Of a stretch of 64,000 nucleotides of DNA, positions 44,184 through 51,456 are shown piece by piece. Origin of the DNA: Methylobacterium radiodurans (GTDB lineage: Bacteria > Pseudomonadota > Alphaproteobacteria > Rhizobiales > Beijerinckiaceae). Position numbers and translations under genes: made by a program. A model generated the notes under the pieces. That model did not search any database. It was not told the DNA's origin and saw nothing but the letters and a program-made list of their open reading frames with translations. Numbering within the stretch: the stretch's first letter is position 1; each line of letters opens with the position of its first letter. The stretch covers positions 4,913,001 to 4,977,000 of the forward strand of contig NZ_CP029551.1 in the NCBI RefSeq assembly GCF_003173735.1. Direction: 5' to 3'.

Positions 44184-44353
44184 GCGAGAGGTCCACCACT
44201 TCCCGCGCCTTACTGCGGGCCGGCCGCATTCAACCGATCGTTGTTGTCGCCTCTGCGGCTGGCGCTGCGCCCGGGCGGCAGCCTACGCTGTCATGACGGC
44301 CCGATTCGCCACGCGTGGCCGTCCCAGAGAAGACGATCCTTCGGGAGGAACGC

Positions 44354-45616
44354 ATGACAACGACACGGCCGGGTCTCGGCCGGGCGCTCGCCGCCGCACT
44401 GTCCACCGCTTTGTCCACCGCGCTGCCCGCAACAGCGCTCCTCGCGAGCCCAGTCGCCGCGCAAGGCATCTCGGATGGCGCCGTGCGCATCGGCATCCTC
44501 AACGACCAGTCCGGAGTCTACGCCGAGTTCGGCGGCCGCTCCTCGATCGAGGCGGCCCGCATGGCGGTCGAGGATTTCGGCGGCAGCGTGAACGGCGCGC
44601 CGATCGAGATCGTCTCGGCCGACCACCAGAACAAGGCCGACATCGCGTCCGGCATCGCGCGGCAATGGTACGATCGGGACAAGGTCGACGCCATCATGGA
44701 GCTGACCACCTCCTCGGTGGCGCTGGCCGTACAAGGGCTCTCCAAGGAGAAGAAGCGGATCACCATCACCACGGGGGCGGCCACCAGCGACCTCACCGGC
44801 AAGCAGTGCTCGACCTACGGCTACCACTGGGCCTACGACACCCGGGCGCTCGCTGTCGGCACCGGCGGCGCGCTGGTGCAACAGGGCGGCAATACCTGGT
44901 TCATGCTGACGGCCGACTACGCCTTCGGCCACTCGCTGGAGGCCGAGGTCACCCGCTACGTCACCTCGAAGGGCGGCAAGGTCGTGGGCGGGGTTCGTCA
45001 CCCGCTGGCGGCGCAGGACTACTCTTCGTTCCTGCTCCAGGCGCAGGGATCGGGCGCCAAGGTGATCGGGCTGGCCAATGCCGGCCTCGACACCTCGAAC
45101 GCCATCAAGCAGGCGGCGGAGTACGGTATCACGCAAGGAGGGCAGCGGCTGGCCGCGCTGCTCTTCACCCTGGCCGAGGTGCACGGTCTCGGGCTCCAGG
45201 TCGCGCAGGGGCTGACGCTCACCGAGGGCTGGTACTGGGACCTCAACGACGAGACCCGGGCCTTCGGGCAGCGCTTCATGAAGCGCACCGGCAAGATGCC
45301 CAACATGGTCCATACCGGCACCTACTCGGCGGTGCTGCAATACCTCAAGGCCGTGAAGGCGGCCGGCACCGACGAGACCGATGCGGTCAACGCCAAGCTG
45401 CGGACGATGCCGGTCGATGATGTCTTCGCCAAGGGCGGCACGGTGCTGCCGAACGGCCGCATGGTGCACGACATGTACCTGTTCGAGGTGAAGAAGCCCG
45501 CCGAATCGAAGGGGCCGTGGGACCTCTACCGCCTGCTCGCGACGATCCCGGGACCCGAGGCGTACGCCAAGCTGGAGGAGAGCGGCTGCACGCTGACCAC
45601 CGCGCGGGCGCCCTGA
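44354..45616 (+). CDS. ABC transporter substrate-binding protein, branched-chain amino acid type
   Basis: 420 aa. Signal peptide cleaved near SPVAAQG, then a type I periplasmic binding fold (Peripla_BP_6): AVRIGILNDQSGVYAEFGGRSS, DAIMELTTSSVALAVQ, NTWFMLTADYAFGH, SSFLLQAQGSGAKVIGLANAG. GGAGG lies 7 nt before the ATG. No permease or ATPase gene is adjacent, so it is an orphan binding protein here; Methylobacterium relatives often bind alcohol-catabolism-related or amino-acid-like ligands, but the ligand is not predictable. Confidence 0.9.
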   Translation: MTTTRPGLGRALAAALSTALSTALPATALLASPVAAQGISDGAVRIGILNDQSGVYAEFGGRSSIEAARMAVEDFGGSVNGAPIEIVSADHQNKADIASGIARQWYDRDKVDAIMELTTSSVALAVQGLSKEKKRITITTGAATSDLTGKQCSTYGYHWAYDTRALAVGTGGALVQQGGNTWFMLTADYAFGHSLEAEVTRYVTSKGGKVVGGVRHPLAAQDYSSFLLQAQGSGAKVIGLANAGLDTSNAIKQAAEYGITQGGQRLAALLFTLAEVHGLGLQVAQGLTLTEGWYWDLNDETRAFGQRFMKRTGKMPNMVHTGTYSAVLQYLKAVKAAGTDETDAVNAKLRTMPVDDVFAKGGTVLPNGRMVHDMYLFEVKKPAESKGPWDLYRLLATIPGPEAYAKLEESGCTLTTARAP

Positions 45617-45823: not shown

Positions 45824-48800
45824 TCAGGCCTCGGTCGCCGCGCCGTCGATCCCGTGCCGCTCCGGATTGATCTGGGCGAGCGCGCGCTTGGCCGCCTCCA
45901 GGGGATGCTCCGACTCGATCCGCACCGCCTTCAGGTCCGGGCTCTTGTAGACGGTCACGATGGTGTCCATCACCTCGGTGAGCGTGGTGCGCTTGTCCTC
46001 CGGAGCGGCGATCAGGAGCTGCAGGCCCCAGGCGCCGTAGAGATCGACCAGCGCCTGGCTGTTGCGCACGTCGAGCTTTGAGAAGGCCTCGTCGAGGAGG
46101 CAGAGGCCGAGGCCCGGATTCTCGTCGCCCGGCCGGTCGCCCGGATAGTAGGCGCTGGCGAGGGACGCCGCGATCGCCACGTAGAAGGGCGCCTGCGCCT
46201 CGCCGCCGGAGCCGCGCAGCGCCCGGCTCGACATGGTGGTGCGCGAGCCGTCCCGGCCGCGCATACCGATCTCGTACACGAAGTAGTTGCGGTAGTCGGC
46301 GAGCCGCGCCGCGTCCTCGGCTCCCCCGATCAGCGCCTGGATCTCCTCCAGCGCCGCCGCCATCGCACCGCCCTCCTCCGAGACGAGGAGCGCCTGCGCG
46401 GCGTCGGCCGAGCGCGCGACCTCGGTCGCCAGCGCGTGCACCGCGGCGTAGCGCCGGTCGACCGCCGCCTCGAAGGCGTAGGTCTGCCCGGTGAAGCTGC
46501 GCGACGACAGGCGCTCGTTCAACGCGTCGAGCCGGGCCTGGACGCGCTCGAACTTGTCGGCCAGCCGCGTCAGCAGGTCCTCGGTCATCAGGCGGCGCAT
46601 CTCGCCCTCGGCCCGCTCGGCCTGGGCGCGGTAGCGGCGCAGCTCGTGGCCCGCCACCGCGTCGTGCTCGCGCTTGGCGAAGTCGTAGCCGAGGCTCGCC
46701 GGGGCCTCGCCTTGCCCCAGCGGGTTCGCGATGCGCCACTGCGCGCAGTACTCGGTGAGGTCGCGCTCGGCGGCGCGTCCCTGCGCGCGCGCGGTCTCGG
46801 CGGCCTCGCGGGCGAGCGTGCGCTCGGTCGCCGCCCGCGCGCTCATCCCCTTGCCGTCGAGCCCGGCGAGGTCCCGCCGCACGGAGGCGACGCCCGAGAA
46901 GTCCGGCGGGGTCTCGCGCAGCAGGCGCACCCGCATGGCGTCGCCCGTGCCGAGCCGGTTGATCGCGCCGCGGCGGGCGCTGAGCGCCGCGCGGGCCGCC
47001 TCGCGGGCCGAGCCCTGGCGCGCCTTCAGCGCCGCCTCGTCGGCGAGCAGGCGGTCGAGCTTGGGCTCCAGCTCCTCTGAAAGTTCGCGCAGATAGGCGA
47101 CGCGCTCGCCGTTGAGTGCCTTGATCTCGGCCTCGATCCCGCCCGCATCCTGCTTCGAGAGGTTTTCGCGCTCGGTAGCCAGGGTCTTGCGCCGCCCCTC
47201 CAGCCCGTCGACCTCGGCGCGGAGCGTGTCGACGTCCTCCAGGCCGCGCTCGATCCGGACGCGGATCGCGGCGGCCGTGCGGGCGGCCTCGCGCAGGACC
47301 ACGGCCTCGTTGCGCAGGCGCCGCGCCTCGGCCACGGCCGCCTCGTGCTGGCGCCGGCTGTCGGCGGTGGGGCCGCGCTGGCCGCGGGTCATCAGGAGGT
47401 CGACCGAGCGCGTAACCGTGTAGGCCATGCCCGCGGTGGTGCGGCCGGAGGGCGCCACGGCGCGGGCGAGATGCTTCAGCTCGGCGTCGTTCTTGGCGAG
47501 GTCGTAGCCGCCGAGCCGGACGCCGAGGAACGCCTCCGCGTGCGGGTCCTGCGTCTCGATCACCGCCATCGGCCCGTCGTCGTAGCGGCGGGGCCTCTGG
47601 CGGGCGGTGTCCGTGGTCTTGACCAGGATGCAGCGGCTGAAGCGGTCGCGGTTCTGCTGGAGCACCCCGAAGGCGTCGTCGAGATGGTGCGGCTCGACCA
47701 CCAGGGCCTCGCGGGCGCGGCCGAGCAGGCCCTCGAGCGCCTGACCCCAGACCGGATCGACGATCTCGGCGAGCTCGCAGATCGGCGTCGCGTCGATGCC
47801 GCGCCGCGCCAGCTCGTTGCGGAACGCCACCGTGTCGGAGGAGAGGCGCGCGGCGGATCCCGAGACCGGCGCCGGGGCGGTGCGCTCGGCCTCTGCCTCC
47901 TTGGCGCGGGCGCGCAGGCCCGTATCCTCGGCGGCGCGCTCCAGCACCTCCTCGAAGGGCCCGAGGCGGCCGAGCCGCTCGACCAGCGTCGCGAGCTGGC
48001 CATCGCCCCGCAAGAGGTCCGCCAGCGGCGCCTCCTTGCGCAGGCCGGAGCGGGCGCAGGCCTCGGCGAGGGAGGCCGCGTCCGGCGCCTCCGGGCGCAG
48101 CAGGGACGCGACGGGCTGGAGCTTGCCCATCTGCAGAACGAGGCCGACGAGGTCGGTGACGCGCAGCGTCAGGTCGCGCCGGTCGCGGTCCAGCATGGAG
48201 AGGCCGAGATTCGAGGCGGCGAGCCGCCCTTCCGCGGCTTGCGCTGCCACCAGCGCCTTCTTCTCGGCGATCTCGGCGTCGATGTCGCGGACGTAGCCGC
48301 GGCTCGACGCGACGCTCTCGCGGGCGATGCGCAGCGCGTCGGCGCCCTCCGAGAGGCGGGTGCGGATCGCCAGCAGATCGACGCAGCGGCGGCGCAGCTC
48401 GATGCTGGCCGCCCGCGCCTCGTGGATCACGGCCGCCAGCACCGCGTCGCCCCAAGCCTCGTAGCGGCCGAGCAGGCGGCGCAGGCGGCCGAGCTTCAGC
48501 TCCAGCTCGGCGATGGTGTCGAGGAGCGCCCGCCAGTTCTCGACGGACTGGCGCACCCGCGCGACGTCGAGGGGCTCGGCGTCGAGCACGAAGGCGCGCA
48601 CGAAGGCGCTGGTGTCGAAGATCGGCTTGAAGGCGACCGCGTTGGCGAAGCTGCGCAGGAAATGGCGCGGGTCCGGCACCGGCGCGCCCTCGCGCAGCGT
48701 CGCCAGGAGCTCCGCGGTGAAGCGCTCGCCCGAGGAGCGGAACTCCTCGAAGCTCTCGGAGCGTCGGCGCAGGTCAGCGGCGATCTCGCTCCAGGGTGCG

Positions 48801-49342
48801 GTGTAGCTGCCCTCCCCGTTCTGGCGGGCGTAGTCGCCGATCTCGAAGCGGTGGCCGGTCGCGATGAAGCGCGACAGCACGGTCTCGCGGCTCTCGCCGG
48901 CACGCGCGGCGAGCGCCAGCCCGACCGAGACGACCCGGCCCGTGTGCTCGTTCTCGAAGACGAGGACCAGCACCGTCTCGCAGGCCTCGCGGGTCGGGCG
49001 CCCGCCCTCGGCAGGGTCGCTGATCCAGCCGAGGCAGTAGTCGCGCACCGTCCGGGCGCTGCGGCCGGACGCGGAGGCGTTGAGGGCGAGCCGGCTCGCG
49101 TTGTTGCCGGCCAGCACCGTGCCGACCGCGTCGAAGATCGTGGACTTGCCGGCCCCTGTCGGGCCGACGAGCGCCGTCGCGCCGCGCACGCGGATCTGCT
49201 CGCGGCGGATGAGGTACCAGTTCGAGATCGCGATGTCGGTGAGACGGTACACCCTGTCTTGCCATAGCGGGGGTTGCGGAAGCGTGGCGCCCTGTGCGGG
49301 CAGATCGCGGCGGATGCAAGCCGCCGGGGTCTCACTCTCCAC
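45824..49342 (-). CDS. SMC-like ATPase related to JetC/MksB (Wadjet-type condensin)
   Basis: About 1172 aa from a GTG at 49342 that overlaps the upstream DUF4194 gene by 11 bp. The head begins YRLTDIAISNWYLIRREQIRV with Walker A GPTGAGKST (about 60-68). Long coiled-coil arms surround a hinge-like centre (about 505-620, VWGQALEGLLGRAREALVVEPHHL region). The C-terminal head has the signature RGSGGEAQAPFYVA (about 1044), Walker B LGLCLLDEAFSKLD (about 1078-1091) and the switch LLIAAPEDK. This is JetC/MksB-like rather than chromosomal Smc. The partners JetA (kleisin) and JetD are not next to it. Confidence 0.82.
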   Translation of the reverse strand: MESETPAACIRRDLPAQGATLPQPPLWQDRVYRLTDIAISNWYLIRREQIRVRGATALVGPTGAGKSTIFDAVGTVLAGNNASRLALNASASGRSARTVRDYCLGWISDPAEGGRPTREACETVLVLVFENEHTGRVVSVGLALAARAGESRETVLSRFIATGHRFEIGDYARQNGEGSYTAPWSEIAADLRRRSESFEEFRSSGERFTAELLATLREGAPVPDPRHFLRSFANAVAFKPIFDTSAFVRAFVLDAEPLDVARVRQSVENWRALLDTIAELELKLGRLRRLLGRYEAWGDAVLAAVIHEARAASIELRRRCVDLLAIRTRLSEGADALRIARESVASSRGYVRDIDAEIAEKKALVAAQAAEGRLAASNLGLSMLDRDRRDLTLRVTDLVGLVLQMGKLQPVASLLRPEAPDAASLAEACARSGLRKEAPLADLLRGDGQLATLVERLGRLGPFEEVLERAAEDTGLRARAKEAEAERTAPAPVSGSAARLSSDTVAFRNELARRGIDATPICELAEIVDPVWGQALEGLLGRAREALVVEPHHLDDAFGVLQQNRDRFSRCILVKTTDTARQRPRRYDDGPMAVIETQDPHAEAFLGVRLGGYDLAKNDAELKHLARAVAPSGRTTAGMAYTVTRSVDLLMTRGQRGPTADSRRQHEAAVAEARRLRNEAVVLREAARTAAAIRVRIERGLEDVDTLRAEVDGLEGRRKTLATERENLSKQDAGGIEAEIKALNGERVAYLRELSEELEPKLDRLLADEAALKARQGSAREAARAALSARRGAINRLGTGDAMRVRLLRETPPDFSGVASVRRDLAGLDGKGMSARAATERTLAREAAETARAQGRAAERDLTEYCAQWRIANPLGQGEAPASLGYDFAKREHDAVAGHELRRYRAQAERAEGEMRRLMTEDLLTRLADKFERVQARLDALNERLSSRSFTGQTYAFEAAVDRRYAAVHALATEVARSADAAQALLVSEEGGAMAAALEEIQALIGGAEDAARLADYRNYFVYEIGMRGRDGSRTTMSSRALRGSGGEAQAPFYVAIAASLASAYYPGDRPGDENPGLGLCLLDEAFSKLDVRNSQALVDLYGAWGLQLLIAAPEDKRTTLTEVMDTIVTVYKSPDLKAVRIESEHPLEAAKRALAQINPERHGIDGAATEA

Positions 49343-50000
49343 CGTCGCCCGCACTCTCGCCCGTACTCTCGCCTGCACCGTCCGCCGCGCCGGCCCAGGC
49401 CTCGATCCGCTCCAGCCAGCCATCCGAGGCCAGCACGAGGATGCCGGGCAGGACCATGACGGGCGTCACCCGCTCGGACCGGTCGCGCTCCCCGAGCCGG
49501 ACGCCGCCGCGGCGAGCGAACAGGCGCAGGGTCTCGATCAGCCGGGCCTCGTCTGGCGGCTCGGAGCGGGCGGCGGTGCGGATCGACTCGACGAGATCGT
49601 CGGTGGTGATCTCCACGATGCCGTCCGTCGAGATGCGGTGGTCGCGCACCCCCTCCTCGTAGGCCAGCCGCAGAGCCAGCAGCACCAGCGTCTCGTCCTT
49701 GCGCAGGCGCTCGGAGACGATGTCGTGGCGCGCCGCGTCGATCGGCAGGGTCAGCGAGACCATCTGGTCCCGGTGCGAGACCGCCATCTGGTAGCCGAGG
49801 CAGGCGAAGTAGTCGGTGAAGAAGGGCTGATAGTGCCGCGCCAGCTCGTAGGAGCGGCCGATGCCGGGCGTGCTCGAGTAGATCACCTGCGCCTTCAGGA
49901 GCACCTGGAGCGCGCGCGACAGCTCCTCGGCGTCCGGAGCGCGGCTTCCCGGCGGTGGCGGCTCGTCGCCGTCGATGATGGCGCGGAAGGGCTCGAACAT
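49332..50000 (-). CDS. DUF4194 protein, JetB/MksE-like condensin subunit
   Basis: 222 aa. ELSRALQVLLKAQVIYSSTPG, RHYQPFFTDYFACLGYQMAVSH and RLRKDETLVLLALRLAYEEG match the winged-helix DUF4194 family (JetB of Wadjet, MksE of Mks condensins). These proteins bind the kleisin subunit and DNA. The ATG at 50000 starts the conserved MFEPFRAII. A C-terminal low-complexity tail (SAGDGGE) runs into the SMC-like gene, which starts in its last codons. A divergent LRR-kinase gene begins 137 bp away. No JetA gene lies upstream. Confidence 0.75.
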   Translation of the reverse strand: MFEPFRAIIDGDEPPPPGSRAPDAEELSRALQVLLKAQVIYSSTPGIGRSYELARHYQPFFTDYFACLGYQMAVSHRDQMVSLTLPIDAARHDIVSERLRKDETLVLLALRLAYEEGVRDHRISTDGIVEITTDDLVESIRTAARSEPPDEARLIETLRLFARRGGVRLGERDRSERVTPVMVLPGILVLASDGWLERIEAWAGAADGAGESTGESAGDGGE

Positions 50001-50136
50001 GGTCAGCTGGCGGTGGTTCGCGGGGCGCGTCGATGGGCGCGCTCCCTCTCCCACAGGCCGAGCCTCAGGGATACCCAGCGGATACCCGGCGGGAGGATGC
50101 GGCGCGGCGTGCCCGAACCTGCTAGGCCCCTCCCCC

Positions 50137-51456
50137 ATGACAGAACCGGCCGACACCCTCAGGGCCCTCCGCCGCGGCGATCTCGCGGGCGCGCGCGTCC
50201 TGCGGCTGCCGCCGGGCCTCGCCGAATTCCCAACCGAGATCTTCGGGCTCGCCGACACGCTCGAACTCCTCGACATCGGCGGCAGCCCGCTCTGCGACCT
50301 GCCGCCGGATCTCTCGCGGCTGCGGCACCTGCGGGTGCTGTTCTGCTCCGGCGGTCGGTTCGCCTGCCTGCCGCCGGTGCTGGGCGATTGCCCGGCGCTG
50401 GAGCAGATCGGCTGCCGCGGCGCGGGTGTGGAGGCGGTGCCGGCCGAGGCCCTGCCGCCGCGCCTGCGCTGGCTCACGCTCACGGACAACCGGATCGCGG
50501 CCCTGCCGGCCGCGCTCGGCGAACGGCCGATGCTCCAGAAGCTGATGCTCTCCGGCAACCGGCTCTCCGCCCTGCCCGACAGCCTCGCGGGCGCGCCGAA
50601 TCTCGAACTCCTGCGCATTGCGGCGAACCGCTTCGCCGCACCCCCGGTCTGGCTCGCCGGCCTGCCGCGGCTCGCCTGGCTCGCCTGCGCGGGCAACCCG
50701 TTCGAGCCGCTGCTGCCGCTCGCGCCGATGCCCGACGTGCCCTGGGACGACCTCGAACCCGGCGCGCTTCTGGGTGAGGGCGCGTCGGGCCGGATCCACG
50801 CGGCCCGCTGGCGCCGCGCCGACGGGGCGCACGACGTCGCCTTGAAGCTGTTCAAGGGCACGATGACGAGCGACGGCCTGCCCGAGCGCGAGATGGCGGC
50901 CTGTCTCGCGGCCGGCGCCCACCCGAACCTCTCCGGCGGCCTCGGCCGGCTCGTCGGCCATCCCGAGAGCGCGGACGGGCTGCTGATGCCGCTCCTGCCG
51001 GCGGAATGGCGGGCGCTCGCCGGCCCGCCGAGCCTCGCGAGTTGCAGCCGGGACGTCTACGACGACAGCCTGCGCTTCGCGCCCGCGGTGGGCCTTCGCC
51101 TCGCGCGCGCCGCTGCCCTGGGGGCAGCGCATCTCCACGCCCGCGGGTTGATGCACGGCGATCTCTACGCCCACAACTTGCTCTGGGACGGGTCGGCCGG
51201 CGCGGCCGTGCTGAGCGATTTCGGCGCGGCCTGCGCCCTGCCAGAGGAGTCCGGCTTCGCATTCCAGCGGGTCGAGGTGCGGGCCTGGGGGCTGCTGCTC
51301 GGCGAGATTCTCGACCGCTGCGATCCGGTGCCCGCGGAGATGGCGGCCCTGCGCGCACTGGAGCGGGCCTGCGTTCAGCCGGACGTCGGCGCGCGGCCGC
51401 TGATGGCGGAGGTGGTGGATGCGCTAGACCAGGTCGGGACACCGGAGGCCGGCTGA
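50137..51456 (+). CDS. Leucine-rich repeat protein kinase
   Basis: 439 aa. Residues about 15-195 are bacterial leucine-rich repeats (RLRWLTLTDNRIAALPAALGE, LQKLMLSGNRLSALPDSLAG, LELLRIAANRFAAPP). Residues about 205-430 form a Hanks-type kinase: Gly loop LLGEGASGRIHAARW, ATP Lys 237 (VALKLFK), catalytic loop MHGDLYAHNLL (HGD instead of HRD, Asp 342) and SDFGAA (Asp 361). No membrane helix, so a cytosolic kinase sensing protein partners is likely. Divergent from the JetB/JetC-like operon; a functional tie is only a hypothesis. Confidence 0.88.
   Translation: MTEPADTLRALRRGDLAGARVLRLPPGLAEFPTEIFGLADTLELLDIGGSPLCDLPPDLSRLRHLRVLFCSGGRFACLPPVLGDCPALEQIGCRGAGVEAVPAEALPPRLRWLTLTDNRIAALPAALGERPMLQKLMLSGNRLSALPDSLAGAPNLELLRIAANRFAAPPVWLAGLPRLAWLACAGNPFEPLLPLAPMPDVPWDDLEPGALLGEGASGRIHAARWRRADGAHDVALKLFKGTMTSDGLPEREMAACLAAGAHPNLSGGLGRLVGHPESADGLLMPLLPAEWRALAGPPSLASCSRDVYDDSLRFAPAVGLRLARAAALGAAHLHARGLMHGDLYAHNLLWDGSAGAAVLSDFGAACALPEESGFAFQRVEVRAWGLLLGEILDRCDPVPAEMAALRALERACVQPDVGARPLMAEVVDALDQVGTPEAG

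Follow-up and report, generated by a model that had tools for sequence, protein, structure and literature searches.

The structural maintenance of chromosomes (SMC) complexes closest to the one treated here belong to the Wadjet group. Wadjet type I comprises JetA, JetB, JetC and JetD and is represented by the systems of Escherichia coli GF4-3 and Pseudomonas aeruginosa PA14. Several members of the group lack JetD, according to PMC7617805. One such complex is MukBEF of enterobacteria, which apparently replaced Smc-ScpAB (PMC10586767 and PMC7617805). MksBEF of P. aeruginosa acts beside SMC in that organism (PMC7485682). An origin of MukBEF and MksBEF from Wadjet has been called a 'tempting' speculation in a review (PMC10586767, section 7). 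How defence machinery is converted to housekeeping use is an open question, and both states seem to be present within one genus, Methylobacterium. Here we analyze a jetB-jetC pair encoded in a 64,000-nucleotide window, meaning the whole stretch of DNA presented, from Methylobacterium radiodurans (contig NZ_CP029551.1, positions 4,913,001 to 4,977,000). We consider it likely that, in groups A, B and D of Methylobacterium, a JetABC of Wadjet type I descent that works without JetD serves as the resident chromosome condensin and takes the place of Smc-ScpAB.

JetA, JetB and JetC of this genome all match the PADLOC models of Wadjet type I. The system differs from described type I systems in that the JetD nuclease domain was not detected in the genus, the genes are dispersed in the clade that includes the window, and its occurrence among Smc-less genomes of the genus is nearly universal rather than patchy. 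Like MukBEF, it is a Wadjet-group complex without JetD, but it belongs to a different subfamily, with a DUF4194 protein as its JetB, and its adoption apparently was a separate, more recent event confined to one genus. Unlike in P. aeruginosa, where MksBEF and SMC act side by side, Smc was not found here. With Smc-ScpAB it would share the role of chromosome condensin, although the protein families are different and the two have nearly complementary distributions in the genus. A JetD-less Wadjet-group complex is therefore a known kind of system. In the open-access literature searched, we came across no genus whose only condensin is a type I JetABC, and no mention of an absence of Smc in Methylobacterium or of JetABC serving it as a condensin; the supplementary operon list of PMC7617805 may include Methylobacterium.

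The jetB-jetC pair, a distant JetA and the JetD nuclease

The jetB gene (49332..50000, minus strand) encodes a 222-residue KITE subunit that matches PF13835 (1.4e-18) and the PADLOC JetB1 model PDLC00475 (1.4e-108), in agreement with its original prediction as a DUF4194, JetB-like protein. With 14 bits against a cut-off of 27, the MksE profile PF21980 does not place it among the MksE-family KITE proteins. The adjacent jetC gene (45824..49342, minus strand) encodes an SMC-type ATPase that matches the JetC1 model PDLC00506 with 1844 bits, as well as PF13558 (3e-19) and PF13555 (2.8e-13). The ATPase motifs are intact, as had been predicted: Walker A (GPTGAGKST, 49139..49165), the SGGE signature (within GSGGE, 46199..46213) and Walker B (LCLLDEAF, 46082..46105), all on the minus strand. 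Signature and Walker B are kept in 73 of 73 JetC open reading frames (ORFs) longer than 1050 residues. This set counts the window's own genome twice and was selected by a string containing Walker A, which is therefore not an independent count.

The extent of jetC depends on its start codon. A start at the GTG at 49342 yields 1172 residues and an 11-bp overlap with jetB, while the GTG at 49252 yields 1142 residues and leaves a 79-bp gap after the jetB stop. Similarity to M. hispanicum and M. gregans extends from residue 1, and that to two other relatives from residues 7 and 10. For three of the seven relatives compared it sets in at residues 31-32, close to the second of these GTG codons, and the overlap is therefore a possibility rather than an established feature. 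The two genes are probably one transcription unit, and the proposal of a single operon stands to that extent.

The AlphaFold model of JetB is poor (predicted local distance difference test, pLDDT, 58), and its three best PDB matches, all JetABC entries of E. coli and P. aeruginosa, lend weak support. The model of the M. dankookense JetA is also poor (pLDDT 54), with JetABC entries still first in the PDB, again as weak support. By sequence, JetA and JetB found no counterpart in the PDB, and JetC matched JetC chains over about 115-125 residues. Among phage records, JetC found one weak partial match.

Neither JetA nor JetD adjoins the pair in the window, and the original prediction was right about this immediate neighborhood. 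It went further, proposing a two-gene system lacking JetA. Using the JetA of M. planeticum as a query, we found a JetA in the same genome (G000:C1:2463642-2465030, plus strand; 74% identical, E 5.6e-219; PDLC00466 1.8e-207), and a true absence of JetA is rejected. This genome is a single contig of 5.54 Mb, rated 100% complete, in which JetA lies 2.495 Mb from jetBC. The M. planeticum protein itself matches PF18982 (1.1e-69) and PDLC00466 (1.3e-214), and the JetA of a second relative matches PF18982 (2.5e-67). The suggested search of the rest of the genome for DUF3375 or another kleisin gave no match to PF11855 (DUF3375); the JetA present there belongs to PF18982, and it is this PF18982-family kleisin that contradicts the two-gene proposal. 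A gene that reads as FKBP-like precedes JetA in M. radiodurans, in M. planeticum and in five of 10 genomes with divided jet genes, suggesting that JetA probably stayed in place and that jetBC moved.

The JetD domain PF09983 (JetD_C) was found neither in the single-contig M. radiodurans assembly, which would not cover any plasmids of the strain, as expected from the prediction of a pair without JetD, nor in any of 111 genomes of the genus. The profile does recognize a type I JetD: the one annotated in the JetABCD operon of Erythrobacter aureus, used as a positive control, scores 5.4e-20. To look for a substitute nuclease or another conserved partner, we clustered the neighbors within about 10 kb on each side of JetC at 73 loci, namely the window and L001-L072, in 68 of which JetC itself could be placed. 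No family besides JetB (60 loci) and JetA (55 loci) occurred in more than 30 of the 73. The next family, present in 30 loci at varying places, was rejected as a conserved extra partner. Outside the genus, three plasmid JetC proteins were scanned. Those of Rhizobium leguminosarum and Salipiger plasmids have PDLC00506 as their best match, as in the window, and are adjoined by JetA and JetB, with no recognizable JetD among the next genes tested (a search confined to those genes, in two cases). The JetC of a JetD-bearing Erythrobacter plasmid matches PADLOC models other than PDLC00506 better. Judging from these one Rhizobium and one Salipiger sequences, the nuclease-free state may predate a take-over of the condensin role.

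Distribution and arrangement of JetABC and Smc

With 47 of 81 candidates scored, the Smc profile TIGR02168 gave no more than 24.9 bits in the M. radiodurans genome, against a cut-off of 567, and no ScpA (PF02616) was found; ScpB was not searched. The lack of Smc and ScpA changes the meaning of the jetB-jetC pair. Across its GTDB family, Smc was detected in 126 of 149 genomes (E <= 1e-20; four best candidates scored per genome) and ScpA in 129, and neither was detected in any of the seven genomes of this genus. Six of these seven encode JetC, which outside the genus gave four weak matches of about 65-80 residues. Sixteen family genomes outside the genus are also Smc-less, 10 of them without ScpA as well.

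We searched the same 111 genus genomes for Smc (five best candidates scored in each), JetC and JetA. JetC is present in 91 and JetA in the same 91, with no genome encoding one alone. Smc is present in 20 genomes, 19 of which are among the 20 without JetABC; the remaining JetC-less genome, G108, has neither. Accordingly, 90 of the 91 JetC-bearing genomes lack detected Smc, with G168 as the exception. A Fisher test of this exclusion gives 3e-19, a value that treats related genomes as independent and is not to be read as a probability. The Smc calls derive from 32 genomes listed at E <= 1e-10, of which 20 were accepted (E <= 1.2e-19): 14 score above the curated cut-off and the others are split or lie at contig ends. 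The 12 dropped listings (E about 1e-10 to 2e-14) all come from JetC-bearing genomes and were set aside because the match spans only ~230-300 profile positions away from the ends. In the single-contig genome G247, which lacks JetC, the smc match (G247:C1:2321459-2324868) is split over two frames by a frameshift, an insertion or an assembly error.

The position of smc can be compared directly. In Smc-bearing G213 and M. aquaticum, the genes run mutY, DUF721, dsbA and smc, with ATP synthase genes following; the name mutY comes from annotated records and the rest from reading. In JetABC-bearing M. bullatum, the flanking genes stand in the same order with no smc, and dsbA and atpB are 682 bp apart. 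Within this interval lies the AtpI-like ORF located after smc in M. aquaticum, and no remnant of Smc is detectable (best E 0.11).

According to published phylogenomics, the 19 species of group C, among them M. aquaticum and M. nodulans, are basal in the genus, and groups A, B and D fall together (PMC9364378). Among 72 named JetC loci, taken from the best 80 of 91 matches, group C species names are absent and species of A, B and D are plentiful, with many loci carrying no species name. We infer that the 19-20 Smc genomes correspond to group C. In a FastTree phylogeny of JetC (71 rows, rooted on three long plasmid rows, with a long-branch warning on the outgroup), all rows labelled Methylorubrum fall in one clade of 12, and the window groups with M. 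gregans and M. hispanicum. Taken together, the phylogenomics and the JetC tree map the loss of Smc and the gain of JetABC to about the same branch.

The arrangement of the jet genes varies. JetA and JetB lie upstream of JetC at 55 of the 72 named loci, several others being cut by contig ends. In 76 of 91 genomes the starts of JetA and JetC are within 15 kb of each other on the same contig, and other genes often intervene between JetB and JetC. In the clade of the window, the three genes do not form a single operon: G167 and G168 (taken as M. gregans and M. hispanicum) resemble the window in having JetA apart from JetB-JetC. JetA and JetC are on different contigs in 14 of the 91 genomes, some perhaps only through contig ends, and all 10 of these that we examined encode JetB along with JetA and JetC. 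Eight of them (G049, G130, G164, G170, G188, G190, G218 and G237) keep JetA with JetB and carry JetC on a separate contig. In G190, JetA is read as two segments. That the set is broken at two distinct positions while JetA, JetB and JetC are all retained fits a complex acting in trans.

All three genes are under purifying selection. The ratios of non-synonymous to synonymous substitution rates (dN/dS) against M. hispanicum and M. gregans are 0.071 and 0.060 for JetC and 0.050 and 0.067 for JetB, and 0.098 for JetA (M. hispanicum only). For comparison, ValS gives 0.062 and 0.084, and six other neighbors fall between 0.04 and 0.21. Pairwise distances of JetA and JetC correlate (r 0.964, 55 rows), as those of linked genes would too. 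At 12 loci (L021, L028 and ten more), jetC lies directly upstream of an rpsL-like gene followed by rpsG-like and fusA-like genes, all named by reading.

Probable role of JetABC as a chromosome condensin and alternative explanations

By homology with the solved structures of JetABC and MukBEF, two JetC ATPases would dimerize at the hinge, the JetA kleisin would close the ring across the JetC heads, and JetB dimers would bind JetA. Two motors joined through JetA could then extrude loops of chromosomal DNA with ATP, which would help to compact and separate sister chromosomes. With JetD absent and nothing cut, JetABC could act on the chromosome all the time. We also favor, with less assurance, a more specific scenario in which the type I complex, a plasmid-defense system stripped of its nuclease, became the sole condensin of ~90 Methylobacterium species, displacing Smc-ScpAB on the stem that unites groups A, B and D, while Smc remained in its ancestral place in basal group C. 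Such a replacement would be the second of the MukBEF kind, independent of the first, phylogenetically young and contained within one genus. If true, tools that label JetA, JetB and JetC as anti-plasmid defense mislabel the main condensin of a large genus. Because the genus includes the tractable M. extorquens and an Smc-bearing sister group as a control, the transition is directly testable.

Several observations weigh against a condensin role for JetABC. Because the swap maps to about one branch, between C and A+B+D, the mutual exclusion amounts to about one event, and the correlation cannot prove replacement. A locus devoid of smc was observed in a single JetABC species, ScpA was searched in seven genomes of the genus, and we found no published phenotype for these jet genes. 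G168, rated 4% contaminated, carries a divergent Smc-like protein alongside JetABC (L182:4848-8288, on G168:C20; 580 bits), with 45% identity to the Smc of G213 over the last 265 residues. Furthermore, all five sampled genomes of another genus in the family, g13 (G013, G054, G086, G111 and G133), lack Smc and ScpA, the Smc absence in G133 having been reached by elimination from the list, and a single-protein search found no JetC in them. G108, a 6.3-Mb genome of Methylobacterium rated 100% complete, is unique among the 111 in that Smc, ScpA, JetA and JetC were all not found. Together, g13 and G108 suggest either that loss of Smc is tolerated without JetABC or that a condensin was missed. A P-loop profile search, which ranked JetC first in two JetABC genomes, scored 150 candidates per genome, out of 203-318 in g13 and out of 257 in G108; it was not exhaustive, as part of the matches were inspected and none from G086 or G133. 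Of the long ATPase ORFs retrieved from these genomes (G013, G054 and G111 only), three read as SbcC with a neighboring SbcD and others as ABC transporters.

The region around the Smc-like gene of G168 has features of its own. The gene adjoins a DSBA-domain gene, away from the smc locus, in a region of mostly unrecognized genes. It is followed on the same contig (L182 and L192) by about 10 same-strand ORFs of 350-380 residues with similar N-termini, one of which was tested against Pfam and gave no match.

The most resilient alternative, which we nevertheless hold to be unlikely, is that JetABC is still an anti-plasmid or anti-phage system that traps or compacts small circular DNA uncut, or that uses an unrelated nuclease whose gene lies elsewhere, with the loss of Smc being coincidental. 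Its type I ancestry, the Rhizobium leguminosarum and Salipiger plasmids with JetABC and no recognizable adjoining JetD, and the dependence of the replacement argument on about one correlated event all favor this. On the other side stand the near-universal presence of JetC in genus genomes without detected Smc, a JetC tree that matches the known groups, the lack of a further conserved family within 10 kb of JetC, and an M. radiodurans genome in which neither Smc nor ScpA was detected. The rpsL-like context of jetC at 12 loci argues similarly. A spot upstream of such a gene is not a typical place for defense genes.

Less probable again is the idea that a divergent Smc or another SMC-like protein does the condensin work, or that none is needed, leaving JetABC with an accessory chromosomal role such as DNA repair. 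The g13 genomes and G108, which do without Smc, ScpA and detected JetC, count in its favor, and deletion of smc in Corynebacterium glutamicum is possible with no growth phenotype apparent (PMC11898615). However, no Smc match rose above noise in the M. radiodurans genome, and one other long SMC-like ORF read there (L179) looks like SbcC beside SbcD.

The pair is very improbable as a decaying relic of a scattered Wadjet system: the set is split, JetA is far off and no JetD was found, but the three genes are intact with dN/dS of 0.05-0.10, similar to ValS, the ATPase motifs are kept, and none of the 111 genomes has JetA without JetC or the reverse. The earlier suggestion of a relic with partners elsewhere was thus correct about the location of JetA and is unsupported as to decay.

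The LRR kinase and other neighboring genes

Divergent from jetB and outside the system lies a gene for a leucine-rich repeat (LRR) protein kinase of 439 residues (50137..51456, plus strand), which matches LRR_8 (1.5e-10) and PK_Tyr_Ser-Thr (4.7e-7) when scored on the longer ORF 49975-51456. Its start, at 50137, is 136 bp from that of jetB, and the close divergent placement noted originally is confirmed. Among the loci compared, the kinase adjoins JetB solely in the window, M. hispanicum and M. gregans, and at no other species' locus. Its dN/dS values of 0.30 and 0.23 (against M. hispanicum and M. gregans, respectively) indicate that it evolves faster than any of the ten genes set against it.

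A new two-gene JetBC system with the kinase as sensor or switch is barely credible, since this layout recurs in only two other species, the genome encodes JetA and the kinase changes rapidly; the original proposal made conservation of the kinase beside the pair its own test, and that conservation is lacking. We therefore rejected the kleisin-less pair with a kinase in favor of the complete, nuclease-free JetABC present in 90 of 91 Smc-less genomes of the genus.

The LRR part of the kinase matches XopAC-type models far under their cut-off, probably through the repeats alone. On the other side of the pair, a convergent gene outside the system (44315..45616, plus strand) encodes a periplasmic ligand-binding protein of the Peripla_BP_6 family (PF13458, 7.5e-106).

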